Assembly (NCBI GenBank): GCA_013298045.1
Contig: JAAFJI010000007.1
Span: 1-38,771, forward strand
Direction of reading: 5' to 3'
Source: Betaproteobacteria bacterium
GTDB lineage: Bacteria; Pseudomonadota; Gammaproteobacteria; Burkholderiales; Casimicrobiaceae
DNA: 38,771 bases
In this document: positions 1 to 38,771 of the stretch, in pieces
Layout: every line of letters begins with the position of its first letter
Position numbering within the stretch: the stretch's first letter is position 1
Notes under the pieces: generated by a model
The model's input: only the letters and a program-made list of their open reading frames with translations
Databases searched by the model: none
What the model was told of the DNA's origin: nothing
Translations under genes and position numbers: made by a program

Positions 1-3000
1 AGCGGTCCAGTCACCGTTTGCACCGGCTGGACGCCTGGGGTCACCGGATCGCCGTCAACCAGATTCCCGGCTGCGTCGAGGAGTTGTACGAACACGCCGG
101 GAATGCCGCTCTCGCCAGGCTGCTTAATGCCATCGCCAGCAACGCCACCGCCTGCGCCGTTGTCGATCCACACCACGGTGCCCAGGCTCGCGGGTTGGAA
201 TACACCGAAGTCAACCGTCAAGTTTGATCGGCTGTCCGGCGTGCTGTTCACGTCGGTGACAGTGAGGTCGGCACCCTCGCCCGTCGGCATGTTTAGGCCC
301 AGCGTCACGGTGCCAGAGCGAATGATGCCCGGGCTTACCGTGCGTCCGTGGTCACGGTCATTGCCGGTGGCGCCGAAATTGGTGCTTCCCGGTTCGTATG
401 GACCGTTTGCACTGCCGTTGATACCGGTCGATGAGCTGTAGCCTGCGAGCGCAGCGCCACTCAACTCAACGATATAGCCCCCAGCGTCTAGGCCAGTGAA
501 CAAATACTGACCGGTGCCGTTGGTCGTAGTCGTTGCGATTGACGCGCCGTCCGGCACACCGTCGCTATTAGCGTCAAGGTACAAATTAACGGTAACGCCC
601 GAGAGTCCCAACTCACCGCCGTTGCGCACGCCGTCATTGTTGGTGTCGACGAACACGACGTTTCCGAGGGCGAAGGTGACTGGTACAAAACCAAAATCCA
701 CCGTCATGTCTGCTCGGGTATCGGCCGTGCCTTGTCCGGATGGGCTTAGGTCGGTTTCGCCCGATGGCTCCTGACTTAGGTTGCCATTTCCTAATGAGAC
801 GACACCGCTATTTACGCCAGTAGATGCGGGGTTCGCTGAGGCAATGCCGTTACTGTTGCTATCAACACCGTCCCCGCCGGCCACATCGGTCGGCGAGCTC
901 GCAAGCGGTGCGGAGATCACCGGGCTGTAGAGTGGCCCGCCTGGCTGGAAGTTGACGGCAGCGATTTGCACAACGTAGTTGCCGGTCGGCAATCCATCGA
1001 AACGGTAGTAACCACCAGCCGCCGTCGTCGTCGTCAACGGATTGGCAGTCACCGCGGTGCTGACCGATCCGTCGGCTTGGCGATATAGCGGCTGATTGGC
1101 GTCATTGAGCAAATTGACGACCACGCCGTCGCGACCCACCTCGGCATTGTTAATCGTTCCGCTGCTGTCGGTGTCAAGCCAGACGCGATTGCCGATGCTG
1201 TACTGCGGCACGATGCCGATGTCGAGCTGGGGCTGGGTCGTGGTCGCTGCGGTCGAAACCGTTTGCGAGTTGGCGGTGACGCCAGGCGTAACGGTAAAGA
1301 GCGCCGTTTCAATAGCGCCACCCGCGCCGGGTGCGCCATGATCGCGGCTGTCGTTACCGCTCGCGACTGGGAGCGTTGGGCTCGAGGACAGCGCGCCGAG
1401 CGGCGGCGTCGGCAGCACCACGCGGAATTGCCGCGCGATGTCGCCGGGCGCGCCGCTTTGCAGCAGCGGATTGCCCGCAAGGTCGGTGGTGAACAGATAG
1501 GTTCCGTTGCCGCCGGTGGTCGTTGTGGTCGCAATCACGACGCCCGACGCGTCCAGGAGATTGACGACGGTGCCGTTTGGCAAGCCAGGCTCGCCCGGGT
1601 CGAGAATGCCGTTATTGGTTTGACCGGCACCTGTGCCGATGTCAAACCAGATTTGGTTGCCGATTGCAATTTGATGGAAACCAAAGTCCACCGTCAGATT
1701 CGATTGGATGTTGGGCGCAGGCGCTTGACCGCTGTTGGTCGCGTTGTAGGCGGCGGATCCGTTGACTTCGGTTTCGTCGTTGGTCGGTTCGCCCGAAACA
1801 CCTAACGTGACCGTGCCCGATGTGACGCCCAAACCGATGTAATCGCCACCGGCGGGTTTAATGCCGTTGTTGTCGTTGTTCACGCCTGCGCCACCTGGAC
1901 CTTCGGCGTCGGCGTTGGGCGTGCCGCTGGTGAAGTAGCCCCGCAGGACGCCGCCGGTTGCGAAGTTGCTCGGATTGACGCGCACCCGGTAATTGCCTGG
2001 CGCGAGCCCGTCGAAGCGGTAGTAGCCGCCATTGGCGGTTGTTAGCGTTACCCCGCTCGGCGTAAACACCCCCGGCGAGCTCTCGGTGAGCAGCTCCACC
2101 ACCACGCCGTCGGCACCGCTTTCGCTGCCGTTCACCGTACCGCTATTGTCGGCGTCAAACCACACGCGATTGCCCAGCGAGAACGCATTGACAGTAATGT
2201 CGGCAGTGCCCGGCGTTGTGTTGTTGCCCTGATCGGTGGTTAATCCGCCTTCGGGAATGGTGTTGGTGCGGGTGAACGGCGAGACAGGAATGCCGTTGTT
2301 GGTGACCGTGACCGTCAACGTACAGCTCGCGCCGCCTGCGAGCGTGCCGCCGGTGAGCGTGAGCGTTGTTGCGCCCGCAGCTGGCGCAAACGTCCCGCCG
2401 CAGGTATTGGCGGCGTTCGGCGGCGATGCAACCTGAATGTTTGGCGGGAAGTTGTCGGTGAGCGAGACGTTGGTGCGGGCGTTGTTCGCCGCACCGATAC
2501 TGATGGTCAACACCGAGGTGCCGCCAATCGCGATTTCAGTCGGCGCAAAAGCCTTTGCAACCGTCGGCGGCGGAATTGCCTGGACGGTGGTCGTGGTTAC
2601 CGATGAGAGACCTGACGACGTGGTGAGATTGGACTGGTTATTGGTGAACGAGTTGGCGCTAGCAGCAACCACGGTAAACACGGCCGAACAGGTTGCATTC
2701 GGGCCGACTGACGTCGCCCCAGAAATGGTGACGGTCGCACCGGAATTGGTAATCGTCGTGCTGCCGCCGCAGCTATTGCTGACCGTCGCGGTGGCGGTGA
2801 TCCCGGAAGGTAAGTTATCGGTGATCGAGAAGCCGTTTTGTGAACTGGTGTTTACGTTGAGCACCGAAATCGTGAGGCTGAACGGCTGACCGACCGACAC
2901 CGTTGGCGGCGAGAACGCCTTCTGAACGTTGGTGTTTGGCTGCACCGTCAGCGTCGCCGATGTCGGCGTGGTGTTCGTCGCCCGTTGATCCGATGTCGCG

Positions 3001-5810
3001 TTGTTGGCCGGAATGGTGTTGGTCTTGTTGCCGGTCGTCGTCGCGACGACATCAACCGTCACGGTGCACGAAAGATAGGTGCCCATCGGACCGTCGAAGT
3101 TGTCACCAACGAGATAGACATCCGACACCGTAATGGTGGTGCCGCCCGGGGATGCAACGACCGTTGCAGGCGTGCTTGACGGGTACGGAATGCGCGCTTC
3201 ACCGTTGTTGTGGTTATAGAACGGCGACGCCGGTCCCTCGGTGCGGCAGGTGGTAGACGCGTTCGGGCTAGCGGCGATGAACACGCCCGCTGGTAGCGTA
3301 TCGCTGAAACCGACGCCGGTGAGCGGCCAGTTATCAGGTCGCACTTCTATGGTGAGCGGCACCGGCTGGCCCCCAGTAGCCGCGCCGCCGTTTCCGAACG
3401 TTTTGTTGAGCGACAACGAGCGGGGGCGGGTGTAGAGTCGAGCGGTGCCCGGTTGCGCGTTGGTCAGACCTTCCGCGGTGGTCAGGGTGTTTTCCGGAAT
3501 CGTATTGGTCGCATCAGCACTTGCGGACGCGCTAAGCGGAATCACCACGTCAACCGAGAAGAAGCAACGGCTCGGGTTCGCCTGGGTTCCGGTCGGCACT
3601 GTTGCCCCGGAGATCGAGACGGTGCCGCTTCCTGGAGTAGCGTTAACCACGGCACCCACACCGCAGTCGGTCTCGACATTCGGCGCGGCGGCCACGGTAA
3701 CGGCGAAAGGCGTGGTCGGAAGCGTATCGCTGATTGCAGCGTTGGTAAGCGGCGCTCCGCTCTTGTTGGTGATCCACACAGTGAGGCGGCTGAGTCCCCC
3801 CGGATTGAGCACGTAGGAGCTGAACGTTTTCTCGATATTGGCGAGGCTCAGAATGCGCACATCGACGCGTGCCGGCGCGGGGTTGGTTGCACCCTGGGCT
3901 GTGCTGATGTTGGTCGCCGGAATTTCGTTGCGATAGTTCCCTGGCGCGACGCCGCGCAAGCGCACCGAGAACCAGCAACCGGTGTTAAACCAGTTGGTGT
4001 CGGGCGGAAGCGAGGCGGGCTGCGTCGACCAACCGCTATAGGTAATCGTGTCCTGTCCGTTCGCGGCACGGCTCACTGTCACCGAGCCTGTGTTCGAGCA
4101 ACCCGGATAGGAGGTTGCGGCGGTGTTGTTTGGGCCCTGGCTGGCTGCATTGAAATTGGCGAGGTAGATCAGATTGGTGCCGTCGGTCAATGCGATCGGA
4201 CCTGCGCCGCCGGCAACATCGACCTGTACACCGAGCGGCAACACGTCGGTCATGGAGCCGGACGAGTAGGTACGATCGTAGAGGTTGTTGTAGGCACCCA
4301 GGCGCATCCAGAACGTGCCATTGAGTTCACGGTCGCCACTGCCGTTAGGCCCCACGTTAAAGCCGCTTGGGCCATTCCAGTCTTTGTAGACACGGAGCTC
4401 GCCTGATCCTCCGACACCGGGCGTTGGCGTGCCCGTGATCTGCGCGCTATCGGGCGCGATCGGCTGTTTGTTCTGTGTGTTGGTGACGTCGGACGGGTTC
4501 ACGGTGTTGCTTTGCACCGCAAAGCTCGCCGTGACCAACGCGCGGAAGCGGAACGTACAGACACCCGGCGTCCCGCTCGTCAGGTTTGCGCCGGGAATGG
4601 TTGCGCCGGAGATTGTGACTCGGGTGCGCGACGGATCGCCCGCATCCGGCCCGCTGGCAAAGCTGCCGCCGCAACTGACGGGCGAAGCGCTGAAGCTCGG
4701 GTTTCCCGCGACCGTCACGCCGTTGGGCAGGAGATCGGTGACCGAGAAATTAGTAAGCTGACCGTCTAAGTTTGAGAACGTCAATTCGGTGAAATACACC
4801 CCTCCCACCGGGACGCTGATCGATTCCTGCCCGTTGTGCGTTTTTTGCAGGGTGAGCGAATCTTGAACGCTGAGCGTAGCGCTGGTCGGCGTCGTGTTGG
4901 TCACGCCCTCGTCGCTGGTGAGTGCGTTTGCCGGAATCGTGTTGTTGTAGTTGCCCGCCGCGACGCCGGTGGTGGTGATCGTCACCGTACAGGTCGTATT
5001 CGGCGCAATCGTTGCGCCGACTAGCGACACGACACTTGGATCGCCCGCTGCAGTCACCGTCGCACCGACGCCGCAGTTGGCATTTGCGGTGCCGGTCGCG
5101 GCGTTGGTCAGCGAGGCCGTCCCGGCGGGCATCGTGTCGCTCAGTGCTACGTTATTAATCGCGTAGGGCGCGTTATTGCGAATCGTGATGCTCAGCGTTG
5201 AATTGCCTCCGAGCGGCACCGTAGACGGATTGAACGATTTGGTCACCGTGGCGGGGATGGCCGGTTGAATCACAATCGTTGCGCTAAATGGATCGCTCTG
5301 ACAGGGGCTACAGCCGGGACCGGTCGCGGTCGCGTCCGCAGTAGGTACGCTGTTGGTAACGTTTGCCGGAAGCGAGCCCGGTGCACCAGGCACCTCGGCT
5401 GGGTCAGCGCGCACACGAACGACCACCCGACAATCCGGCGCAGCGGTCGAAAGCCGGTTCGGAAATGTCAAGTTCGCAATTGTGATCTGGCTGTCAGTGA
5501 CCGTGACGGTCGCGCCTGCGAGTGTGCAGTCCGGTCCGATCGGATAAATCTCGGCCGGAAACGTCGAGTCGCCGTCCAAACCCAATGGCAGGTTATCGAC
5601 GATGTTGGCCGTCAGTGCACCCGCCGAGGAGTTAAACAGGTTGAATTCGAGATACGCGGTTTGCCCGGGACCCAAATTGTTGACTTGCGTCGCGCTGGTG
5701 GGTGAATTGATGAACTTCTTGTTCACCAGAAAGTTTTGACCCAGCGCGACTGTACTGAGTAGTGCCACTGTCGCCGCGAGACTCGCCTTGAAAAGCCGTC
5801 CGAAACCCAT
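1..5810 (-). CDS. Giant secreted DUF11 / SdrD_B-like repeat protein, N-terminal part
   Basis: The frame is open from an ATG at 5810 to the left edge: at least 1936 residues with no stop, so the C-terminus lies outside the window. Residues 1-25 form a signal peptide (basic start, hydrophobic core, ending near VALGQ). Eight DUF11-type beta-sandwich repeats follow, starting near residues 25, 185, 317, 470, 655, 798, 960 and 1081, with recurring 'sDtLPaG' turns. Five SdrD_B/Cna_B-like repeats start at residues 1211, 1382, 1538, 1714 and 1875, each opening with a [SA][IL]Gn.vw.D motif and several carrying DxDxxG calcium-type loops. An AGGGGA ribosome site lies 7 nt before the ATG. Families of this kind are extracellular adhesin or matrix proteins. 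The anchoring or secretion route cannot be judged without the C-terminus. No partner genes are visible next to it. Confidence 0.88.
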   Translation of the reverse strand, partial: MGFGRLFKASLAATVALLSTVALGQNFLVNKKFINSPTSATQVNNLGPGQTAYLEFNLFNSSAGALTANIVDNLPLGLDGDSTFPAEIYPIGPDCTLAGATVTVTDSQITIANLTFPNRLSTAAPDCRVVVRVRADPAEVPGAPGSLPANVTNSVPTADATATGPGCSPCQSDPFSATIVIQPAIPATVTKSFNPSTVPLGGNSTLSITIRNNAPYAINNVALSDTMPAGTASLTNAATGTANANCGVGATVTAAGDPSVVSLVGATIAPNTTCTVTITTTGVAAGNYNNTIPANALTSDEGVTNTTPTSATLSVQDSLTLQKTHNGQESISVPVGGVYFTELTFSNLDGQLTNFSVTDLLPNGVTVAGNPSFSASPVSCGGSFASGPDAGDPSRTRVTISGATIPGANLTSGTPGVCTFRFRALVTASFAVQSNTVNPSDVTNTQNKQPIAPDSAQITGTPTPGVGGSGELRVYKDWNGPSGFNVGPNGSGDRELNGTFWMRLGAYNNLYDRTYSSGSMTDVLPLGVQVDVAGGAGPIALTDGTNLIYLANFNAASQGPNNTAATSYPGCSNTGSVTVSRAANGQDTITYSGWSTQPASLPPDTNWFNTGCWFSVRLRGVAPGNYRNEIPATNISTAQGATNPAPARVDVRILSLANIEKTFSSYVLNPGGLSRLTVWITNKSGAPLTNAAISDTLPTTPFAVTVAAAPNVETDCGVGAVVNATPGSGTVSISGATVPTGTQANPSRCFFSVDVVIPLSASASADATNTIPENTLTTAEGLTNAQPGTARLYTRPRSLSLNKTFGNGGAATGGQPVPLTIEVRPDNWPLTGVGFSDTLPAGVFIAASPNASTTCRTEGPASPFYNHNNGEARIPYPSSTPATVVASPGGTTITVSDVYLVGDNFDGPMGTYLSCTVTVDVVATTTGNKTNTIPANNATSDQRATNTTPTSATLTVQPNTNVQKAFSPPTVSVGQPFSLTISVLNVNTSSQNGFSITDNLPSGITATATVSNSCGGSTTITNSGATVTISGATSVGPNATCSAVFTVVAASANSFTNNQSNLTTSSGLSSVTTTTVQAIPPPTVAKAFAPTEIAIGGTSVLTISIGAANNARTNVSLTDNFPPNIQVASPPNAANTCGGTFAPAAGATTLTLTGGTLAGGASCTLTVTVTNNGIPVSPFTRTNTIPEGGLTTDQGNNTTPGTADITVNAFSLGNRVWFDADNSGTVNGSESGADGVVVELLTESSPGVFTPSGVTLTTANGGYYRFDGLAPGNYRVRVNPSNFATGGVLRGYFTSGTPNADAEGPGGAGVNNDNNGIKPAGGDYIGLGVTSGTVTLGVSGEPTNDETEVNGSAAYNATNSGQAPAPNIQSNLTVDFGFHQIAIGNQIWFDIGTGAGQTNNGILDPGEPGLPNGTVVNLLDASGVVIATTTTTGGNGTYLFTTDLAGNPLLQSGAPGDIARQFRVVLPTPPLGALSSSPTLPVASGNDSRDHGAPGAGGAIETALFTVTPGVTANSQTVSTAATTTQPQLDIGIVPQYSIGNRVWLDTDSSGTINNAEVGRDGVVVNLLNDANQPLYRQADGSVSTAVTANPLTTTTAAGGYYRFDGLPTGNYVVQIAAVNFQPGGPLYSPVISAPLASSPTDVAGGDGVDSNSNGIASANPASTGVNSGVVSLGNGNLSQEPSGETDLSPSGQGTADTRADMTVDFGFVPVTFALGNVVFVDTNNDGVRNGGELGLSGVTVNLYLDANSDGVPDGASIATTTTNGTGQYLFTGLDAGGYIVELSGAALAGYSSSTGINGSANGPYEPGSTNFGATGNDRDHGRTVSPGIIRSGTVTLGLNMPTGEGADLTVTDVNSTPDSRSNLTVDFGVFQPASLGTVVWIDNGAGGGVAGDGIKQPGESGIPGVFVQLLDAAGNLVDGDPVTPGVQPVQTVTGP

Positions 5811-6222
5811 CACCGATCCCCTGATACTGTTGACCTAGACAAAACCCAAATTTTCGAAACCGCTCGCAAGTCGGTTGACCGATTTTAGTCAGCATGCGTG
5901 GGTTCGCGCAAGAAATCGCGCGCATCGTCTATGACGATACCGACGCGATCACCCTGGATTGTGCGCAGCCAGACGCAGACCCCTTACCGGCTTGTTTTTG
6001 AAGCGTGCCGCCACAACAAGGTTCGCGACTAGCGTACGAACAGCGCGAGTTTCTTGGATCGTCTTAAACGCGCGCGCACGAGACTTCACATATTGACAAG
6101 CAACAACATCCCACATTGCCCGTTAAAACATAGGGTTCTGCACATTTTTATCAAAAATAGATATTTGCAAGAAAAGTGGAATTTTGTTTTATTCTAGGGG
6201 CATCAGTTGGGAAAGTTACTTC
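5811..6222. other. 412-bp gap between parB and the giant repeat protein
   Basis: No convincing gene is seen. The only short reading frame noted, 35 codons on the plus strand from 5894, has no recognisable product and no clear ribosome site. The part nearest parB (about 6120-6200) is AT-rich. No clear intrinsic terminator for parB was found. The gap probably holds the promoter of the repeat protein. Confidence 0.5.
5882..5911 (-). promoter_or_regulatory. Possible sigma70 promoter of the giant repeat protein
   Basis: On the minus strand TTGCGC (5906-5911) and TAAAAT (5882-5887) are separated by 18 bp and lie about 75 bp upstream of the ATG at 5810. A short inverted repeat, TCGGTcaACCGA, sits just downstream of the -10 element. 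The -35 match is weak, so this is only a candidate. Confidence 0.3.
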
Positions 6223-10409: not shown

Positions 10410-12426
10410 TCACGCGGTTAGCTCCACAACTTTCCCCGCATTCGCCCGTTTCAAATGGACGAGAAGCAATGAAATAGCAGCAGGTGTTACACCTGAAATT
10501 CGGCTTGCCTGCCCCAATGTATCAGGCGTCGCTTGGGTAAGTTTTTGCTGAACTTCTTTGGAAAGCCCGCGCACCATCGAATAGTCGAAATCGGTCGGCA
10601 GGCGGAGGTTTTCGTTGGCGAGTTGACGCTCGATTTCTTCGTTTTGACGGTCGATATAGCCGGCGTATTTGGCGGCGATTTCCACCTGTTCGCTAACGGA
10701 TTCGTCGAGCGCGCGGTTCGTAGGATGGGTGGAGGAACGATACCCATCGGTCGCCGGTAGTGGGTTGGGGTGATGGGTATCGCTTCGCTCCACCCATCCT
10801 ACGGGAGCCACGTTCTCCGCTTCGCTCTTCGCTTTGAGTCCGAATTCTTCGCGCAGACCAGCAATTGTCTCGTACGTAACACCCGGACGTCGCAACAGGT
10901 CGAACAGGTTGTATTCGCGTTCAATAGGCGCTCCAAGCGTAGCGAGCGCTCGCTCGTTACTCAAAATCTGGGGGTTGATCCAGGTGGATTTGAGGCGTTC
11001 AGTTTCGCACGCGATGGCGTCGCGTTTGCGGTTGAAGGCGTCCCAGCGCGCGTCATCGACCAAGCCAAGCTCGCGTCCCTGCTCCGTCAAGCGCATATCG
11101 GCGTTGTCTTCGCGCAGTTGCAAACGGTATTCCGCGCGGCTCGTGAACATGCGATACGGCTCGGAGACGCCTTGCGTGGTCAGGTCGTCTACGAGCACAC
11201 CGAGGTAGGCCTCGTCGCGGCGCGGACACCAGCCTTCGAGACCTTTGGATTTCCGCGCGGCGTTCACTCCCGCGAGCAAACCTTGCGCGGCAGCTTCTTC
11301 GTAGCCGGTCGTGCCGTTGATCTGGCCGGCCATGAAGAGCCCGTCGAGATACTTGGTTTCAAGCGTTTGTTTGAGCTGGCGCGGATCGAAATAGTCGTAT
11401 TCGATCGCGTAACCGGGGCGCAGGATGTGCGCGTTTTCGAGTCCGGCCATCGAGCGGATCAGCGCGAGCTGAATATCGCAGACTGGTCGACACGCCCGCC
11501 GGGTAAATCTCGGTCGTCGTGAGCCCTTCCGGTTCAAGGAAGATTTGATGGCTCGACTTATCCGCAAAGCGATGAATCTTGTCTTCGATGCTCGGGCAAT
11601 AGCGCGGGCCGACGCCTTCGATCACGCCGGTGAACATTGGCGAGCGGTCGAGTCCCGAACGAATGATGTCGTGCGTGCGCTCGTTGGTATGTGTGATCCA
11701 GCACGGCACTTTGCGCGGGTGCATCGCGCGGGTACCCATGAAGCTAAACACCGGTTCGGGATCATCGCCCGGCTGGATGCCGACTTTCGCGTAATCGATG
11801 GTTTTGCCGTCGATGCGCGGCGGCGTCCCGGTTTTGAGGCGACCTTGCGGTAGCTTCATTTCCTTGAGACGTGCGCCGAGGGTCGTCGCTGCCGGATCGC
11901 CCGCGCGGCCTGCCGTGTAATTCTGCAGGCCGATGTGGATCAAGCCTGAGAGGAACGTCCCCGCCGTCAGCACCACGGTTTCGGCTTCGAAGACCACACC
12001 CATTTGCGTTTTGACGCCGGTCACGCGGTTGCCGGAGACGCAAACGTCATCAACTGGCTGCTGAAAGAGCGTCAAATTCGGCTGAGTCTCGATGCGCTTT
12101 CGAATCGCGGCGCGGTAGAGCACGCGGTCGTTTTGTGCGCGGGTCGCTCGAACCGCTGGGCCTTTTGAGGAATTCAGGATGCGAAATTGGATACCGGCTT
12201 CGTCGGTCGCGATCGCCATTGCGCCGCCGAGCGCGTCCACTTCCTTGACCAAGTGGCCTTTTCCGATGCCGCCAATCGACGGATTGCAGCTCATTTGACC
12301 CAAGGTTTCGATGCTGTGCGTGAGCAACAGCGTCTCCGCGCCCGCCCGCGCGGACGCAAGCGCAGCCTCGCTACCGGCGTGGCCACCGCCGACGACGATG
12401 ACATCGAAACGTTTGGGGAAAATCAT
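10410..12426 (-). pseudogene. mnmG: tRNA uridine carboxymethylaminomethyl-modification enzyme MnmG, frameshifted
   Basis: MnmG (GidA) works with MnmE to modify wobble uridine 34 in tRNAs. The N-terminal part, from ATG 12426, has the FAD motif [12 protein letters not shown], then [14 protein letters not shown] and [15 protein letters not shown]. The reading frame breaks near 11479: the family's STSLPFDVQ segment reads STSL, then continues as [10 protein letters not shown] in another frame. Restoring five bases (residues PF) rejoins the frames. The total of 2017 bp plus 5 is divisible by three. The C-terminal part has [29 protein letters not shown] and [11 protein letters not shown]. An extra stretch of about 34 residues ([10 protein letters not shown]...) comes from a palindromic repeat. 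Either the gene is broken or the shift is an assembly error. Confidence 0.9.
10719..10803. repeat. Palindromic repeat inserted in frame in mnmG
   Basis: Arms 10719-10748 and 10772-10803 are reverse complements apart from a 2-nt length difference, and both end in CGTAGGATGGGTGGAG. On the minus strand the element is translated as [10 protein letters not shown]...YRSSTHPT inside MnmG, between the 'LREEFGL' and '[13 protein letters not shown]' segments that are normally close together. Confidence 0.88.
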
Positions 12427-31305: not shown

Positions 31306-31974
31306 CTATCCCCCGTGCCGAGGATCCTTCCCTTGCACGATATGAATCACGTACTCGCTGATGTTTTTCGTGTGATCCGCGACACGCTCGGCCGCTTTCG
31401 CCAGGAACGCGATTTCAATGCCAGCGCCGATCGTGCGCGGGTCTTCAAGCGTGTAAGTCACGATCAGGCGCAAGATGCGCTCGAACTCATCGTCCACCGC
31501 TTTGTCGCGACCGATCACTTCACCAGCGGCAATGACATCAAGTCTTGCGAATGCGTTGAGCGATTCTTTAAGCATCTCTTGAACGAGTACGCCGATGTGC
31601 TTCATTTCGTTCAAACGCATCGATTGGAAGCGCTCGTTCGCTTGAAACTGCTTAGCGCGCTCGGCAATTTTTTTTATCTCATCGCCAATGCGTTCGAGGT
31701 CTCCTGCGGCTTGCATCGTGCAAAGAATCTGTCGCAGGTCAACAGCAGCAGGCTGGCGCTTGGCAATAATTTCCATACCCTTGCGATCGATGTCCATCTG
31801 TAGCGAGTTGACCTTTTTGTCCTCGCGTGTGACCGCTTCGACGAGATCTGCGTCGTTGGTTGCGACCGCGCGCATCGCGCGCTCCATCTGCGCCTCGACG
31901 ATGCCGCCCATCGCAAGCAGGCTGCTGCGCAGGTCTTCGAGTTCGAGTTCGAATTGTTTGGAGGTGTGTTCCAT
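31306..31974 (-). CDS. phoU: Phosphate-signalling protein PhoU
   Basis: 222 residues from ATG 31974 (MEHTSKQFELELEDLRSSLL), preceded by AGGAA 5 nt upstream. A longer in-frame start would read through a repeat and is rejected. It is all-helical with two PhoU repeats. The metal-binding motifs E-x-x-x-D-R are partly visible as GDLERIGDEIKKIAE and AERVADHTKNISE. PhoU links the Pst transporter to the PhoR/PhoB system and dampens phosphate uptake. It is last in the pst cluster and separated from pstB by a 106-bp mobile-like element. No phoB/phoR is in the window. Confidence 0.95.
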   Translation of the reverse strand: MEHTSKQFELELEDLRSSLLAMGGIVEAQMERAMRAVATNDADLVEAVTREDKKVNSLQMDIDRKGMEIIAKRQPAAVDLRQILCTMQAAGDLERIGDEIKKIAERAKQFQANERFQSMRLNEMKHIGVLVQEMLKESLNAFARLDVIAAGEVIGRDKAVDDEFERILRLIVTYTLEDPRTIGAGIEIAFLAKAAERVADHTKNISEYVIHIVQGKDPRHGG

Positions 31975-31986
31975 GTTCGTTCCTAA

Positions 31987-32092
31987 TGCGTCACCCCGGC
32001 GAAGGCCGGGATCCATCGTGGTGGGAGATGACTGCTCATTCTTTGCGCAAATTTATGCATAAGTGGGTCGCAGCCTGCGCTGCAATGACGCA
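31987..32092. repeat. 106-bp MITE-like element in the pstB-phoU gap
   Basis: It is bounded by perfect 7-bp inverted ends, TGCGTCA (31987-31993) and TGACGCA (32086-32092). The left part is a CACCCCGGCGAAGGCCGGGATCC segment (31992-32014) related to the repeat at 8208-8316. The right part is a GC-rich GGGTCGCAGCCTGCG segment. It lies between pstB and phoU. Confidence 0.65.
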
Positions 32093-32097
32093 CGCCG

Positions 32098-32898
32098 TTA
32101 ACCAAAACGGCCCGTGATGTAATCCTCTGTCCGTTTATCTTGCGGCTTCACAAAAATTTGCGCGGTCGGCGTGAATTCGACCAATTCTCCGAGATACATG
32201 TAAGCCGTGAACTGCGACACGCGAGCCGCCTGCTGCATGTTGTGGGTCACAATGACGATGGTGTAATCGGTACGCAGTTCGCTGACCAACTCTTCAATGC
32301 GTGCGGTTGAAATCGGATCAAGCGCAGACGTCGGCTCATCAAGCAGCAGAACTTCCGGTTTTACCGCAATGCCGCGCGCGATACACAGCCGCTGCTGTTG
32401 ACCGCCGGAGAGCGACAGACCGCTTTGCGAAAGCTTGTCTTTCGTCTCGTTCCACAACGCCGCTTTCTTGAGAGCCCACTCGACCCGATCGTCCATGTCG
32501 CTCTTGCCGAGCTTTTCGTACAAGCGAACGCCGAAAGAAATGTTGTCGTAAATCGACATTGGAAACGGCGTGGGTTTTTGAAACACCATGCCGACCGAGC
32601 CGCGCAGGGCGTTCAAGTCGTAGCTCGAATCGAGTACGTTTTCACCATTGAGCAGTACCTCGCCTTCGGCGCGCTGACCGGGATAGAGCGAATACATGCG
32701 ATTGAGCACACGCAGCAAGGTCGATTTGCCGCAACCCGACGGGCCAATGAACGCGGTGACCTGTTTTTCCGGAATGTCGAGCGAGATGTTGCGCAAGCCC
32801 TGAAACGATCCGTAGAAAAAATTCAGGTTATTGATTTTGATCTTGGTCGCATTCGCTACCGCATTGGCATCGCTGCCGAGACTGACTTGGAAGGACAT
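32098..32898 (-). CDS. pstB: Phosphate ABC transporter ATP-binding protein PstB
   Basis: 266 residues from ATG 32898 ([14 protein letters not shown]). The frame also opens 108 bp earlier within the pstA end, which is rejected. It powers high-affinity phosphate import. Walker [11 protein letters not shown]-loop [11 protein letters not shown], signature LSGGQQQR and Walker [13 protein letters not shown] are all present, with the switch His in IVTHNMQQA. The PF-MS motif after the Q-loop is typical of PstB. It lies 24 bp downstream of pstA. Confidence 0.97.
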
Positions 32899-32921
32899 AA
32901 CTTGTTTTCTTTCCCGGTGTC

Positions 32922-33782
32922 TTATTGGGTTTTCTGACGAAACACGGTTCGCGCCAAAATATTCAGAAGCAATACGGTGAGCGTGATGAGCAGCGCACCC
33001 GCCCATGCCAGGCGCTGCCAGTCTTCATACGGGCTCATTGCGAATTGGAAGATCACCACCGGCAGGTTTGCCATCGGTGCGCCCATGTCGGTGCTCCAAA
33101 ACTGATTGTTAAGCGCGGTGAACAAAAGCGGCGCGGTCTCGCCCGAAATACGCGCAAGCGCGAGCAAGATGCCAGTAATCACACCACCACGCACGGACTT
33201 AATCGTGACCTTAAGTACGACTTGCCAAAGCGGAGCGCCGACTGCGTACGCAGCTTCGCGAAGACTGTTGGGTACGAGCTGAAGCATGTTTTCAGTTGTG
33301 CGCACCACCACCGGGACTGCAATGATTGCGAGTGCTGTGGCACCCGCCCAGCCGGAATACTGTTTAAACTGAAATACGATCACTGCATACACGAACAAGC
33401 CAATTACGATCGATGGTGCCGAAAGCAAAATGTCGTTCACGAAGCGGGTGACTTTTGCGATCCAGCTATCCCGCCCGACCTCTGCGAGGTAAATGCCCGC
33501 CATGATGCCAATGGGGGTGGCGATGAAAATCGCGGTGCCGACCATCATCAAGCTGCCGAAGATCGCATTGGCAAGACCGCCATCGGATCCCGGCGGTGGC
33601 GTCATTTGCGTGAACAGCGTGGGGCTCAAGGCGGCAAATCCTTTACCGAACAGCGTCACCAAAATCCAGATCAGAAACGCCATACCGAAGGTCATCGTCG
33701 CAAGCGACATGACCAGATTGAATCGATTGACCCAAACCCGACGACGGTAGATTGGGTTGGTGGCACGAGGATTGCCGTTCAT
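32922..33782 (-). CDS. pstA: Phosphate ABC transporter permease PstA
   Basis: 286 residues with about six membrane segments. The cytoplasmic coupling motif appears as [20 protein letters not shown], and the conserved [15 protein letters not shown] segment follows. The N-terminus ([13 protein letters not shown]) is a basic cytoplasmic tail. It forms the channel with PstC. The ATG overlaps the pstC stop by 4 bp (ATGA), so the two are translationally coupled. Confidence 0.96.
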
Positions 33783-34729
33783 GTGCGCTTCCCTTCTCTC
33801 TTGGCCAGGTTTGCGAGCATCCAGCGCGATGCGGCAAGTACACAGAACGTGAGCAGGAATAGCACAAGTCCGAGTGCAATCAGCGCCGACAGATGCAGCG
33901 GATCGGAGGCCTCATTGAATTCGTTGGCGAGCGACGAAGCAATCGAATTGCCTGGTTCGAATAGCGCCAAAGAGATGTTGTACGCGTTACCGATGACGAA
34001 AGTCACTGCCATGGTTTCGCCGAGCGCTCGACCGAGCCCAAGCATGACGCCGCCGACGACGCCGGTCTTTGTGTAAGGCAACACGACGTTCCACACCACT
34101 TCCCACGTCGTCGCGCCGAGACCATATGCAGATTCTTTGAGAATCGGCGGCGTGGTTTCGAACACGTCGCGCATGACGGACGCCGTAAACGGAATCACCA
34201 TCACCGACAAAATGATTCCGGCGGTCAACACACCGATGCCGATCGTTGGACCCTGAAACAACGCGCCGATGACCGGCAATTTGCCGAGCGTCGCGCTCAG
34301 TAACGGCTGAATGTGCTCGCCAAACAGAGGCGCAAACACGAACAGTCCCCACATGCCATAAATGATGGAAGGAATCGCCGCGAGCAACTCAACGGCGGTT
34401 CCAAGCGGGCGCTTGAGAATCGGCGGACACATCTCGGTGAGAAAGATTGCGATTCCGAAGCTCACGGGAACCGCGATGATCATCGCAATCGTTGCAGTAA
34501 TCAGCGTGCCCCAAAGCGGCGCGAGTCCGCCGAAGAGGCTGCGCACGGGGTCCCAGCTAGCGTCGACGAAAAACTTTGGACCGACCTTGGTGATCGTTGG
34601 CCACGCGCCGTGTATGAGCGAAATGATGATGGCCGCTAAAGTGACCAGCACCAGGACGGCAAAAAACTGGGTCGATCGCGCGAAGATCGCATCTTGTCGC
34701 GCGAATGATCGTGTGGGATTGGAACTCAT
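33779..34729 (-). CDS. pstC: Phosphate ABC transporter permease PstC
   Basis: 316 residues with about six membrane segments. The first helix is [20 protein letters not shown]. The coupling motif is [22 protein letters not shown] and the [16 protein letters not shown] segment is conserved. It pairs with PstA in the membrane. It follows pstS by 87 bp, a gap holding a hairpin (34760-34784). Confidence 0.96.
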
Positions 34730-34816: not shown

Positions 34817-35854
34817 TCACATCAGCGCTTTGCCGGACGCATCGGTAATTTTCTTCCATTCCTCGCGAATGAGGTTCGTCGTTGCTGGAGGAAGCGGCAC
34901 GTAGTCAAGTTCGCTTGCCGATTTCGCGCCGTTTTTGAACGCGAAATCGAAGAACTTCAATACTTCTTTCGACTGCTCAGGCTTCCCCGGCTTCGCGTAC
35001 ATCAGGATGAACGAAGCGCCGGCCATTGGCCAGCTTGCCTTGCCGACCTGGTTGGTAAGCACCACGCCCATGCCAGGTGTGCCTTTCCAGTCGGCACCAG
35101 CCGCGGCGGCCGCAAACGCCGAATCGTCGGGCGTTACGAATACGCCATCGCGATTGCGCATCTGGATGTAGTCGAGTTTGTTTTTCTTCGCGTACGCAAA
35201 CTCAACGTAGCCAATCGAGCCCTTGATGCGCTGAACGTATTGCGCAACGCCTTCGTTGCCCTTGCCGCCCACGCCTTCCGGCCAGCTTACTGCGGTGCCC
35301 ACACCTACTTTGGTCTTCCACTCGGGCGAGACTTTCGAGAGGTAATCGACAAACAGGAAGGTCGTGCCCGAACCATCGGAGCGACGCACAACGGTGATCG
35401 GACCGTCAAGCTTCACGCCGGGGTTCAGATCGGTGATCGCTTTCTCGTTCCAGTTCTTGATCTTGCCAAGATAGATGTCGGCCAAGATTTCACCGGTAAG
35501 CTTCAACTGACCCGGTGCAACGTTGTCCATGTTGGTCACCGGCACGACGCCACCGATGATCGCCGGGAACTGAATCAAGCCGTCTTTCGCGAGATCTTCA
35601 GCTTTGAGCGGCATATCGGTCGCACCGAAATCCACAGTCTTCGATTGAATCTGTTTGATCCCGCCACCCGAACCGATCGACTGATAGTTCATCGAAATAC
35701 CGGTGGATTTTTTGTATTCATCCGCCCATTTCGCGTAAATCGGAAACGGGAAGGTCGCGCCAGCGCCTGTGATGGTCTGCGCGAAAGATGTCGAAGCGAC
35801 ACCTGCAGCAATCACTGCGGCGACGGTCGCGATGGAGTTTTTTACAGCTTTCAT
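34817..35854 (-). CDS. pstS: Phosphate-binding periplasmic protein PstS
   Basis: 345 residues from ATG 35854. Residues 1-26 form a signal peptide (KAVKNS start, hydrophobic core, cleavage after SFA). The mature protein starts QTITGAGATFPFPIYAKWADEY, the family signature. Phosphate-contact segments are visible: IGSGGGIKQIQ, VDFGATDMPL and RSDGSGTTF. It captures phosphate in the periplasm and hands it to PstCA. It is the first gene of the operon. A GGA site lies 5 nt before the ATG. Confidence 0.97.
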   Translation of the reverse strand: MKAVKNSIATVAAVIAAGVASTSFAQTITGAGATFPFPIYAKWADEYKKSTGISMNYQSIGSGGGIKQIQSKTVDFGATDMPLKAEDLAKDGLIQFPAIIGGVVPVTNMDNVAPGQLKLTGEILADIYLGKIKNWNEKAITDLNPGVKLDGPITVVRRSDGSGTTFLFVDYLSKVSPEWKTKVGVGTAVSWPEGVGGKGNEGVAQYVQRIKGSIGYVEFAYAKKNKLDYIQMRNRDGVFVTPDDSAFAAAAAGADWKGTPGMGVVLTNQVGKASWPMAGASFILMYAKPGKPEQSKEVLKFFDFAFKNGAKSASELDYVPLPPATTNLIREEWKKITDASGKALM

Positions 35855-35941
35855 GTGATTCCAGTCGTTTTGAAGGAGGAGTGAGTCCGGGCCCGCAAAT
35901 CGCGCGACACGCACCTTTTCAGAACGTAAGTGTCGCCGCCA

Positions 35942-35977
35942 ATTATTACAACGATATTGCAGTGGATTTCTTAACAG
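35942..35977 (-). promoter_or_regulatory. Possible Pho-regulated pstS promoter
   Basis: On the minus strand, CTGTTAAGAAATCCACTG (35960-35977) is followed after 12 bp by AATAAT (35942-35947), about 90 bp upstream of pstS. The first half resembles a PhoB half-site (CTGTCAT); the second half is poor. Weak candidate. Confidence 0.25.
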
Positions 35978-36121
35978 CAAACACGCTTAATGCCGCTTCA
36001 AATATATGTTACTGCCATGTTTCTTTATTAAACAACAAATAATGTATTTTATATTTTAATCAATTTTAATGAGGCAATTAGTGAAAATGCTGTACTATGC
36101 CGCCGCCAAAATCGGCGCGCA

Positions 36122-36181: not shown

Positions 36182-36601
36182 ATGACCGCTAAGAGCAACC
36201 CACCTGTGAAGAAAGTCGTCGCAGCAAAGGACAGCAAAGCCGCAAAGAAAGTGTCGACGAAGCCCGCGAACACGTTGAGCGCAATTGCTTCGGCGCAATC
36301 AAAGAAAGTGACGAAAGCCGTCCAAACTCCGGTTGAAAAAGCACCGAGCAAGTCCGAGCGACAAACCACGCCAATCCCGGCAAAAGCGAAACTGGTGCGC
36401 GATAGCTTCACGCTGCCCGAGTCCGATCACGACTTAATTAAACAGTGCAAGAAAATCGCCATCGCCGCCGGTCGCGAGACCAAGAAAAGCGAAGTCGTGC
36501 GCGCCGCTATTCGCGTATTCAGTGCGCTCTCGACCGCCAAACAAATCGAAACATACGCGAGCTTGCAATCGATCGCCGTTGGTCGTCCGAAGGCGAAATA
36601 A
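36182..36601 (+). CDS. Basic Lys/Ala-rich protein with a ribbon-helix-helix-like C-terminus
   Basis: 139 residues. Residues 1-68 are rich in Lys, Ala, Pro and Thr, like histone-H1-type tails (PVKKVVAAKDSKAAKKVSTK). Residues about 72-125 look like a small DNA-binding domain: VRDSFTLPESDHDLIKQCKKIAIAAGRETKKSEVVRAAIRVF, a strand followed by two helices. Similar basic-tail proteins occur in betaproteobacteria, but the role is not settled; nucleoid binding is an inference. It has a good ribosome site and promoter candidate and stands alone. Confidence 0.82.
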   Translation: MTAKSNPPVKKVVAAKDSKAAKKVSTKPANTLSAIASAQSKKVTKAVQTPVEKAPSKSERQTTPIPAKAKLVRDSFTLPESDHDLIKQCKKIAIAAGRETKKSEVVRAAIRVFSALSTAKQIETYASLQSIAVGRPKAK

Positions 36602-36622: not shown

Positions 36623-36883
36623 TCAGGCGATAACCGCCTCGCGCCGATAAGGCTCGGCAATCGCCGCCGTGATGCGCTCGATCGATCGGGCGTACATCAC
36701 GCCACGTACGTTGATATCGATTGCGTCGCCTTGCTGCGCGGCGAGTGTGCATTCGACCAGGGCTTCTAGACCGTAGTCGACGACGCGCTCGACAATGGCC
36801 GGATCGAGCGGCTCGAAGCCAAGCTCGAGCGCCGATTCGCGCACAGCGGCGACGCTATAAGCAGCAGAAACTTCTTTGTTCAT
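36623..36883 (-). CDS. Small hypothetical protein
   Basis: 86 residues. Family not recognised. The sequence is mainly helical and acidic (ALELGFEPLDPAIVERVVDYGLEALVECTLAAQQGDAIDINV), without a signal peptide or membrane segment. An AAAGGA site lies 9 nt before the ATG. It is convergent with the RHH-like gene (21 bp apart) and divergent from the phosphatidylserine decarboxylase gene. It could be spurious, but codon use looks coding. Confidence 0.55.
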   Translation of the reverse strand: MNKEVSAAYSVAAVRESALELGFEPLDPAIVERVVDYGLEALVECTLAAQQGDAIDINVRGVMYARSIERITAAIAEPYRREAVIA

Positions 36884-37020
36884 TGACGATGTCCTTTCAA
36901 TCGATTGGGCTCAAAGGTCACATGACGCGATGTTTCTTGGCGTCGATGACACAAGCGTGACAACGCAGTCATTGCACTGCAACACGACAAGTCGAACATA
37001 CGATTCATCGCATGTTTTGA

Positions 37021-38106
37021 ATGCCTTGCATGGTGACTCATCAGTACATCGAGAGATATCGAAATACTGCGGCTAACGAACAACTGTTAGCCGATCAAGC
37101 CATCCGCTTTTTGTACAGCCGCCGTCGCGAAGAGCCCGGTTTTTTGTTGAACGCCCTGGGCTCTGGTCTGGTCACCGATGCGCTTGCGCATTGGCAGTTT
37201 GATCGTCGTTTACGCGATGCGAAACGCGTCATCGAAAACACGGCACATCGGCTCATGATTCGCGAATCGGAAACGGTCGATGGTTTCGCGCACATGACCA
37301 CGTTGCGCGACCTGTTCGAACGACAGATTCGCTACTGGGATTTGCGACCGCTGCCCGAAGCAAGCGATGCAATCGTCTCGCCCGCCGATGGAAAATTATT
37401 GCCATTTGCTGCGTTCGATCGCGACGCGTTGCCGATCAAATCGAAGTTTGTTCGCGTCGACGAGCTGCTCGGCGGCGTGAACCCGTGGCGACATTGCATT
37501 TCGAGTGAAGGACGCGGACAACCTTTCTCGGACACGACACTCGCACCGTTGTGTGGGGTCATCGTTCGACTGACCCCCGATGTGTATCACTACACCCACG
37601 CACCGGTTGCCGGCCGCGTACTGCGTCAGCAAACGATCGAAGGCCGATTTCACTCGTGTAATCCAACGGCGCTTACGCGCTTTCCGGGTTCCTACGCGTT
37701 TAATCGTCGCGTCGTCACCGTATACGACAGCGATGTACACGGCGGCTCGGGCGTCGGCTTCGTGGTGCAAGTCGATGTCGCCGCAATGATGATCGGTGTC
37801 ATTGAATCAAGATTCAGCACCCATCGCTACGACCATGCGCGTCAGATTGCCGTTGGCGACTTTGTCCCACGAGGCGCACCGGTGTCTTTGTTTCGTCCGG
37901 GCAGTAGCACCAGCATCGTTCTGTGGGACGGTCATCGTGCGCAACTGTCTCGCGAGCTGGTCGCCAATGCTAAACGCCGCGATCTGCGCAGTCGCTTTTC
38001 CGATTGGCTTTCACAACCGTGGGTGGAGACGCAGGTCGCCGTGCGCCAGTCGATCTCGGAAATCGATGCGCAAGCCTCTGTTCGCAAGGAGTTCAATCAT
38101 GAATGA
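37021..38106 (+). CDS. psd: Phosphatidylserine decarboxylase-family protein
   Basis: 361 residues, or 358 from ATG 37030. It converts phosphatidylserine to phosphatidylethanolamine using a self-made pyruvoyl group. The catalytic triad can be placed: D123 in VSPADGK, H193 in YHYTHAP, and S295 in the self-cleavage site PGSST (the family's usual LGST). Spacing of the three matches the family. An extra N-terminal region of about 60 residues (IRFLYSRRREEPGFLLNALGSG) is present. No phosphatidylserine synthase is nearby. It overlaps the next gene by 8 bp, so the two are probably co-translated. Confidence 0.85.
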   Translation: MPCMVTHQYIERYRNTAANEQLLADQAIRFLYSRRREEPGFLLNALGSGLVTDALAHWQFDRRLRDAKRVIENTAHRLMIRESETVDGFAHMTTLRDLFERQIRYWDLRPLPEASDAIVSPADGKLLPFAAFDRDALPIKSKFVRVDELLGGVNPWRHCISSEGRGQPFSDTTLAPLCGVIVRLTPDVYHYTHAPVAGRVLRQQTIEGRFHSCNPTALTRFPGSYAFNRRVVTVYDSDVHGGSGVGFVVQVDVAAMMIGVIESRFSTHRYDHARQIAVGDFVPRGAPVSLFRPGSSTSIVLWDGHRAQLSRELVANAKRRDLRSRFSDWLSQPWVETQVAVRQSISEIDAQASVRKEFNHE

Positions 38107-38771
38107 ATGGTTCACCATTGAAATCAGCGTGCTCTTGCTCGCCGCAATGGGCTACTTTGTTTTTCGCTGGGGCTTTCGCAATCTGCGCAGCGAGGGCTGG
38201 CAAATAGCGATGGCGATTCCCGCCCGAACAAATGGGGCGGAGGGGCGGTTTTGGCCTGCTGTTAACTTCACCACTTACGGTGTGATTTCATCCATTGCCT
38301 ATGGGCTATCAACCTGTGTGTTTGTGTTCCTCGTGGGCGCAATGGCCCAACCGCTGCGCCCGGCCGCGCTCTTTGTGACCTTGCTACTGTTAGTCGGTGT
38401 TCCGGCGTCGAAATGGGTCGCGCGTTGGGTCGAAGGCATGGCGGGTCATACGATCGGCGGCGCAGTGTTCGCTGTGTTGGTCGCTGCGATCCCGGCGATG
38501 GGCCTGACGCAATGGATCGCCAAAGCGTTTGCATGGCCGACGTTCGACCCCGGCGTCATCATGGCTGCCGCCTGCATCGCGTATGCACTCGGCGAGGCGA
38601 TTGGTCGTCTGGCGTGTCTATCGTTTGGATGCTGTTACGGACGACCGATTGCGCAGTGCACGTCGCTACAAAAAGCGCTTTACTCGCGCATGACAGAGAC
38701 CTATCGAGGTCGCTTCAAAAAAATTGCGTACGCTGGTGGCCTAAACGATCATCCTGTAATTGCCGTGCAGT
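38099..38771 (+). CDS. Lgt-like (prolipoprotein diacylglyceryl transferase family) membrane protein, partial
   Basis: The frame is open to the right edge (224 codons seen). ATG 38099 has an AAGGAG ribosome site 7 nt upstream and overlaps the psd stop. Several membrane segments are visible (IEISVLLLAAMGYFVF; FTTYGVISSIAYGLSTCVFVFLVGA; AALFVTLLLLVGV). The family motif appears as GHTIGGAVFAV and then ALGEAIGRLACLSFGCCYGRP, resembling the GR-x-GCF-x-x-GCCYG signature of Lgt-like proteins. True Lgt transfers diacylglycerol to lipoproteins. Here the partner and substrate are unknown, and the C-terminus is missing. Confidence 0.75.
   Translation, partial: MNEWFTIEISVLLLAAMGYFVFRWGFRNLRSEGWQIAMAIPARTNGAEGRFWPAVNFTTYGVISSIAYGLSTCVFVFLVGAMAQPLRPAALFVTLLLLVGVPASKWVARWVEGMAGHTIGGAVFAVLVAAIPAMGLTQWIAKAFAWPTFDPGVIMAAACIAYALGEAIGRLACLSFGCCYGRPIAQCTSLQKALYSRMTETYRGRFKKIAYAGGLNDHPVIAVQ

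Follow-up and report, generated by a model that had tools for sequence, protein, structure and literature searches.

A putative phosphate-controlled gene pair for a Psd-like decarboxylase and an Lgt-like membrane protein in a betaproteobacterium

An overlapping pair of psd- and lgt-like genes

The stretch of DNA analysed here (38,771 nucleotides, referred to as the window) is the entire contig JAAFJI010000007.1 (C314) of a 3.7-Mb, 346-contig and 90%-complete assembly of a betaproteobacterium of the family Casimicrobiaceae (GCA_013298045.1). At its right end, two genes on the forward strand encode a pyruvoyl-type decarboxylase resembling phosphatidylserine decarboxylase (Psd-like; 37021..38106, +; 361 amino acids) and a membrane protein resembling the prolipoprotein diacylglyceryl transferase Lgt (Lgt-like; 38099..38771, +). 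The former possesses a PF02666 domain (E 7e-29), an N-terminus like that of PRK00723 and the residues GSST at positions 294–297. The open reading frame (ORF) of the latter starts with the ATG at 38099 and comprises the first 224 codons of the gene, the rest of which is cut off where the contig stops. The remaining C-terminal part (profile positions 219–345) was found on another contig (G000:C346:3-386), and the profile of the Lgt-like family scores 245.7 bits in the window and 122.9 bits on C346.

The end of the first gene and the start of the second overlap by 8 bp (38099..38106, +), and translational coupling across this overlap is likely. Both the overlap and the GSS cleavage site had been pointed out by the sequence-only reading, and both were borne out by the ORF coordinates and the position of the GSST residues. 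Its assumption that the two genes are coupled is also sustained by other genomes. The two genes were adjacent on one strand and within 200 bp of each other at 48 of 70 loci; of these junctions, the 45 with a usable start codon (out of 48) were scored, 20 of the 45 overlapped, and 16 did so by exactly 4 bp. The ORFs were called by a crude procedure that missed genes at the ends of contigs and beneath longer ORFs of the opposite strand, and the locus counts are uncorrected for relatedness.

The psd-like and lgt-like genes travel as a unit. Among 199 relatives, the same 10 genomes, including the one studied here, carry an ortholog of the Psd-like protein (at least 40% identity) and the Lgt-like gene. 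A scan of contigs yielded 66 loci, which by their labels belong mostly to Desulfobacterota and Acidobacteriaceae, together with one Nitrospira and several Burkholderiales. Cultured carriers include Geomonas silvestris (L099) and Citrifermentans bremense (L086). In 274 sampled genomes of the class, three matches reached 443–543 bits (that of the window and two from one other family), and the remainder did not exceed 114 bits.

At five loci (L050, L055, L059, L065 and L067), genes for a protein of the chemoreceptor type (cluster 18, MCPsignal) and for a response regulator (cluster 7) also recur beside the operon.

The Psd-like protein and its housekeeping counterparts

The PF02666 domain covers residues 96–308 of the Psd-like protein, and residues 8–319 align to positions 3–279 of the 297-residue Psd model PRK00723. 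The N-terminal region, which had been described as an extra one, is thus additional with respect to the Pfam domain, but it is not unique, because it aligns within Psd proteins of the PRK00723 type. The score against PRK00723 (87.2 bits) stays below the cut-off of 371, as does that against TIGR00163 (69.5 versus 111.75), and the protein falls short of the equivalog cut-off of every NCBIfam model listed.

In the length-filtered alignment of the orthologs (A3, all 49 sequences, with the copy of the window in place of L004), D123, H190, H193, G294 and S296 are invariant (49/49), and residue 295 is serine in 47 of the 49 rows. In an alignment with the E. coli enzyme, the Asp/His blocks correspond. 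We take D123, H190 and H193 to be catalytic and S296 to be the residue of self-cleavage, and the protein is likely to be catalytically active. In none of the 49 rows does a hydrophobic stretch above the threshold begin within residues 1–60, the most hydrophobic stretch being located within the domain; therefore, no sign of export was detected, and the enzyme is apparently soluble. With phosphatidylserine decarboxylases (PF02666; PRK00723 type; E. coli structures 6l06 and 7cnw) it shares the pyruvoyl decarboxylase domain, the Asp/His/His and GSST residues and the N-terminal region. It differs from them by its equivalog scores below the cut-offs, by an invariant FER.IRYW block, by forming a clade of its own, and by its occurrence, among the 199 relatives, exclusively alongside an lgt-like gene.

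The sequence-only reading held that these are not the housekeeping forms of either enzyme, and the counts of further copies speak for this view. The genome of the window carries a canonical lgt gene on C340 (267 bits). Canonical lgt genes (138–277 bits) were detected in 15 of 16 pair-carrying genomes; one of these (G211) has two copies, and nothing in G210 matched PF01790. A second psd gene occurs in 15 of the 16 pair-carrying genomes searched (16 of 17 genomes covered, L060 left out and G214 counted as G015), and five of the six same-genus relatives with an ortholog of the Psd-like protein carry another psd match. In a phylogenetic tree, the 49 Psd proteins of the pairs and 23 other Psd proteins are split by a branch with a support of 100/100; the 23 comparison sequences all stem from the order of the window, include two identical ones and one flagged for its long branch, and hold no housekeeping Psd of Desulfobacterota or Acidobacteria, and the bootstrap had not settled.

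The simplest alternative would be that the Psd-like protein is the ordinary phosphatidylserine decarboxylase of this lineage and the Lgt-like protein a side branch without a special role. The Psd catalytic residues are conserved, a pssA gene is present in the genome of the window, and no second psd gene was found in the assembly of the window or in G015. However, the former assembly is just 90% complete, second copies are present in nearly all other genomes searched, the Psd proteins of the operons form a separate clade, and the Lgt-like protein is strongly conserved, with 30 invariant columns across 52 rows. This alternative is disfavoured above all by the paralog counts and is considered very improbable, and the pair very probably represents specialised forms. 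The idea that a housekeeping psd gene of this genome had been lost in an assembly gap was dropped: the flanking monooxygenase gene stands in a different context, and nothing was shown by it.

The Lgt-like protein

The 224-residue fragment encoded in the window scores 18.9 bits against PF01790, below the cut-off of 24.9, which is exceeded by two full-length orthologs (38.9 and 28.7 bits). In the same 15 genomes, Lgt-like proteins reach 23–42 bits in comparison to 138–277 bits for canonical Lgt. A structure model of an ortholog (mean predicted local distance difference test score, pLDDT, 93.7) matches E. coli Lgt (5azb) over 234 residues with Z 13.0 and a root-mean-square deviation of 4.2; the second-ranked row has a Z of 5.1. 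Foldseek likewise ranks E. coli Lgt first (E 2.6e-3, probability 1.00), and hhalign of the family profile against 14 canonical Lgt proteins gave a probability of 93.8.

In the length-filtered alignment A2 (52 of 53 sequences, L053 omitted), Y61, G62, R171, G182, R263, E267 and R270 are invariant (52/52). By profile alignment they pair with Y26, G27, R143, G154, R239, E243 and R246 of E. coli Lgt (numbering according to PMC4728403), so that the equivalents of R143, R239, E243 and R246 of the donor site are retained throughout. The positions of N146 and E151 are occupied by cysteine (C174 and C179) in all 52 rows, and a third invariant cysteine follows. The signature GRxGNFxNxExxG, regular in 12 of 14 canonical copies, accordingly reads GRLACxSFGCCYG.

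In E. coli Lgt, R143, R239 and E151 are required for activity, the active site faces the periplasm, and the HGGL motif is the proposed and likely site for the lipobox peptide, according to PMC4728403. In the Lgt-like family, HGG of the H103GGL motif is present in 0 of 52 rows; of the 14 canonical copies, 10 have HGG, two HGA and two neither. Histidine occupies neither of the two candidate aligned sites (120 and 126) in the 52 rows, and three rows have a histidine at position 118, two residues off.

The model contains nine long helices, one of them preceding the first helix of Lgt, and also a C-terminal helix. The mean number of lysine and arginine residues in successive regions alternates strictly (0.02, 3.92, 0.29, 2.54, 0.79, 6.65, 0.75, 3.19, 0.71 and 2.77), with helix borders taken from one model. 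The same side is richer in these residues in all 52 rows, even without the two longest loops. In the 14 canonical copies, with borders set by eye, it is the opposite side. According to the positive-inside rule, this charge pattern predicts that the head loop and the active site face the cytosol, inversely to Lgt, and one extra helix would require this. The family thus shares with Lgt (PF01790; 5azb) the fold and the seven conserved residues, and it differs from it by the added N-terminal and C-terminal helices, the three invariant cysteines in the signature, the loss of HGG and the reversed charges.

These properties bear on the lipoprotein modification which the sequence-only reading had offered as one of two possibilities. 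Such a pathway would involve lipidation of special prolipoproteins or of a peptide by the Lgt-like protein, and the Psd-like enzyme would alter the lipid or the peptide end. It would agree with the Lgt fold and the retained donor arginines. However, the motif proposed to hold the peptide, kept in 10 of 14 canonical copies, is absent from all 52 rows, the charge pattern predicts an active site in the cytosol, and no recurring small substrate gene was noticed within the operon, for which no systematic search was made. Owing to the lost peptide motif and the predicted topology, this explanation is disfavoured and regarded as unlikely.

Phosphate genes and a PHO-box-like repeat

Directly upstream of the pair, the window contains the genes pstSCAB-phoU on the reverse strand. 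They encode the phosphate-binding protein PstS (34817..35980, −; one member of the matching cluster is PF12849), the transporter permeases PstC and PstA (32922..34729, −), the transporter ATPase PstB (32098..33006, −; one member of the matching cluster is ABC_tran, and the name was given by eye according to the position within the pst operon) and PhoU (31306..32016, −; one member of the matching cluster is PF01895). On C346, the remainder of the lgt-like gene is followed by a gene for a periplasmic binding protein and by genes resembling phoX, a GDPD gene, ppk and sixA, as judged by eye and from the copies of relatives. Two loci of the same genus share the pst-phoU arrangement, with ppk and a histidine phosphatase gene downstream, and two same-genus relatives possess tandem PhoX-type genes near psd-lgt (L045:8163-12346 and L061:4423-8736).

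Two small genes lie between pst and psd (36182–36601, +, and 36623–36883, −; clusters 12 and 15). They are kept in six and four distinct genomes, respectively, that of the window included, and one member of each cluster gave no Pfam match. The product of the first is rich in Lys and Ala at its N-terminus, and its C-terminus resembles, by eye, a small DNA-binding segment.

In total, 58 genes for PhoU, PstS, PstC/A or PhoX were detected, distributed over 23 of the 72 operon loci. The same queries detected none at 15 canonical lgt loci and none at 15 housekeeping psd loci, three of these control stretches (L152, L158 and L162) being clearly shorter. When loci of the same genomes were paired, phosphate genes occurred at 6 of 16 operon loci and at 0 of 30 control loci (Fisher p 0.0009). 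The query proteins were drawn from operon loci, so that the detection may favour near relatives, and they were used identically for the controls. The arrangements vary, with pst divergent upstream, phoU-pst convergent downstream or phoX downstream; a single inherited arrangement therefore does not explain the phosphate gene neighbourhood. Additionally, a PF13444 acyltransferase is encoded close to the operon at the loci of six relatives; it is OlsB-like, the type of enzyme employed in the synthesis of ornithine lipids.

The region upstream of psd contains a PHO-box-like direct repeat (TGTCAC-N5-TGTCAT; 36946..36962, −), the sole exact match in the window. TGTCA-N6-TGTCA is the form of many PhoB sites of E. 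coli, according to PMC10294691. With at most one mismatch, the repeat is found upstream of psd in all seven genomes of the genus (four exact, three with one mismatch; 0.018 expected per locus); since these genomes are related, a binomial value for 7/7 overstates the case. A corresponding signal in the operons with the third gene described below was dropped, as 3 of 48 loci is too weak. In the genus of the window, control of the pair within the phosphate (Pho) regulon is considered probable.

A third gene in other lineages

In other lineages, a gene for a protein of about 800 amino acids, referred to as C2, usually belongs to the operon. It was called at 49 of 71 loci examined, and at 40 of 70 loci it lies on the strand of psd, no more than 200 bp upstream of that gene. 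No Pfam family matched the two rows scanned, and sequence comparison with solved structures yielded nothing. Kinship of C2 is visible solely by fold comparison. The predicted structure (mean pLDDT 85.7, predicted template-modelling score 0.90) was compared to 282 chains, led by glutamate-cysteine ligases, YbdK, PafA and Dop (Z 18.4 to 12.4), followed by the yeast ligase (Z 10.2), glutamine synthetase III (about 7) and the remainder (below 4). Foldseek placed the same families first (best E 0.05, probability 0.98). In the length-filtered alignment A1 (48 of 49 sequences, L053 omitted), G43, E45 and E47, forming a G.E.E motif near the N-terminus, are invariant; we take this motif to be the likely metal site of the glutamate-cysteine ligase superfamily. 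The model thus suggests a glutamate-cysteine ligase/Pup ligase fold. C2 shares this fold and the motif with the superfamily and differs from it by its size and the absence of a matching Pfam family. Kinship with the Pup ligase PafA would also be in line with a modification of peptides, as assumed in the lipoprotein alternative.

C2 was detected in all six genomes known or seen to possess it, two of which belong to the other gammaproteobacterial family. It was not found in the genome of the window or in 100 relatives, so that the pair functions without C2 in this lineage.

Proposed function

The explanation favoured here with some confidence is that the pair forms a Pho-controlled module of lipid remodelling, in which a phospholipid donates its diacylglyceryl group to a small acceptor in the cytosol that carries an amino-acid head, and this head is then decarboxylated. 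Regarding the parts of this explanation, a role in lipid remodelling as such appears reasonably probable, and of the two possibilities raised by the sequence-only reading, the unusual lipid is the one favoured by the context of phosphate starvation. The transfer to a small acceptor with subsequent decarboxylation is put forward more tentatively. It is proposed because the donor residues are kept, the peptide site is lost, the active site is probably cytosolic, the decarboxylase appears to be soluble and signs of phosphate control are present.

Under phosphate scarcity, the two-gene module, which elsewhere comprises three genes, would act as follows. First, the Lgt-like enzyme would take a diacylglyceryl group from a phospholipid, perhaps phosphatidylglycerol, and transfer it to a small cytosolic molecule with an amino-acid head, which would replace the prolipoprotein cysteine; the phosphate-bearing head group would be freed. 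Second, the Psd-like enzyme would cleave itself at the GSS site, thereby forming a pyruvoyl group, and would decarboxylate the amino-acid head, in analogy to the action of Psd on phosphatidylserine. Third, and only where C2 is present, the ATP-dependent glutamate-cysteine-ligase-like enzyme would make or cap the head group via an amide bond. The pair may in this way yield a phosphorus-saving membrane lipid.

Cysteine is a conceivable acceptor, because canonical Lgt joins the diacylglyceryl group to a cysteine thiol and because an enzyme of the Psd type could recognise the head of diacylglyceryl-cysteine, which equals that of phosphatidylserine with a thioether replacing the phosphodiester. In this more speculative version, for which the odds are rather poor, the inverted Lgt would move the diacylglyceryl group from phosphatidylglycerol to the thiol of free cysteine, the Psd-like enzyme would convert the resulting diacylglyceryl-cysteine to diacylglyceryl-cysteamine, and C2, where present, would cap the amine. 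The product would be a thioether aminolipid and a phosphorus-free analogue of phosphatidylethanolamine, derived from a phospholipid by two reactions, with release of glycerol phosphate for re-use.

The same phosphate context would also fit an acceptor-free reaction. The Lgt-like protein might split phospholipids in the manner of a phospholipase C, providing diacylglycerol for glycolipid synthesis and phosphate for the cell, and the Psd-like protein would be a starvation isoform forming phosphatidylethanolamine from phosphatidylserine. Besides the phosphate genes and PHO-box-like repeats, it is consistent with the diacylglycerol in the crystal of E. coli Lgt, which was ascribed to slow hydrolysis (PMC4728403), and with the sulfate reducer D. 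alaskensis, which exchanges its phospholipids for glycolipids and ornithine lipids when phosphate is limiting (PMC5193443). On the other hand, it leaves unexplained why the genes overlap and were never found apart among the 199 relatives, additional phosphatidylethanolamine would not save phosphate, and neither the invariant cysteines nor the ligase are accounted for. Hence, such a reaction is judged improbable.

Several observations weigh against transfer to a cytosolic acceptor and against the module as proposed. E151, which binds phosphatidylglycerol in Lgt, is replaced by cysteine, and the position of G145 is alanine in 44 of the 52 rows, an exchange that inactivates Lgt (PMC4728403); the donor or the chemistry may therefore differ. 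With Foldseek alone, neither the Lgt-like model nor that of C2 reached a match at E ≤ 0.001. Concerning phosphate control, 49 of the 72 operon loci lack such a gene in the stretch examined, the orientation of the repeat switches between genomes of the genus, and the pst promoter region of the window contains no repeat even if two mismatches are allowed. In the operons with C2, the repeat occurs in 0 of 48 cases exactly and in 3 of 48 with one mismatch, which is not convincing. C2 was found in none of six tested pair-carrying genomes of the order, and a three-step pathway is therefore not universal. The missing second psd in the window's incomplete assembly and in G015 belongs here as well, and in G015 PssA was not found above the cut-off either. 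Finally, acceptor, donor and product are deduced rather than observed.

In comparison to the known Pho-controlled pathways to phosphorus-free lipids (ornithine lipids by OlsBA, betaine lipids by BtaAB and glycolipids by Agt), the phosphate-gene neighbourhood and the PHO-box-like site are shared, as is, at the loci of six relatives, the PF13444 acyltransferase. As far as Pfam shows, the proteins of the pair belong to other families; the distinction is one of family assignment and not of direct comparison. Among the open-licence literature matches listed, none dealt with a pairing of psd and lgt, with an Lgt of inverse orientation or with a free diacylglyceryl-cysteine or diacylglyceryl-cysteamine membrane lipid, which is a weak form of absence.

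Other features of the window

Away from the pair, an mnmG/gidA-like gene (10410–12426, −; named by eye) is split over the overlapping ORFs 11359–12426 and 10410–11567, owing either to a frameshift or to an error of the assembly. The latter ORF contains an inserted stretch resembling a translated repeat element. At the left end (3–5813, −), a repeat-rich and secreted-looking ORF of more than 1,900 amino acids is truncated by the contig end.

Conclusions

If the proposed function is true, a fold known for the lipidation of lipoproteins would have been inverted within the membrane and would act together with a decarboxylase in rebuilding membranes when phosphate is short, and the annotations 'psd' and 'lgt' in genomes carrying this pair can mislead. 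Such a module would span sulfate reducers, relatives of Geobacter, Acidobacteriaceae and betaproteobacteria, and it would provide the genes for a lipid class that could be searched for by environmental lipidomics.

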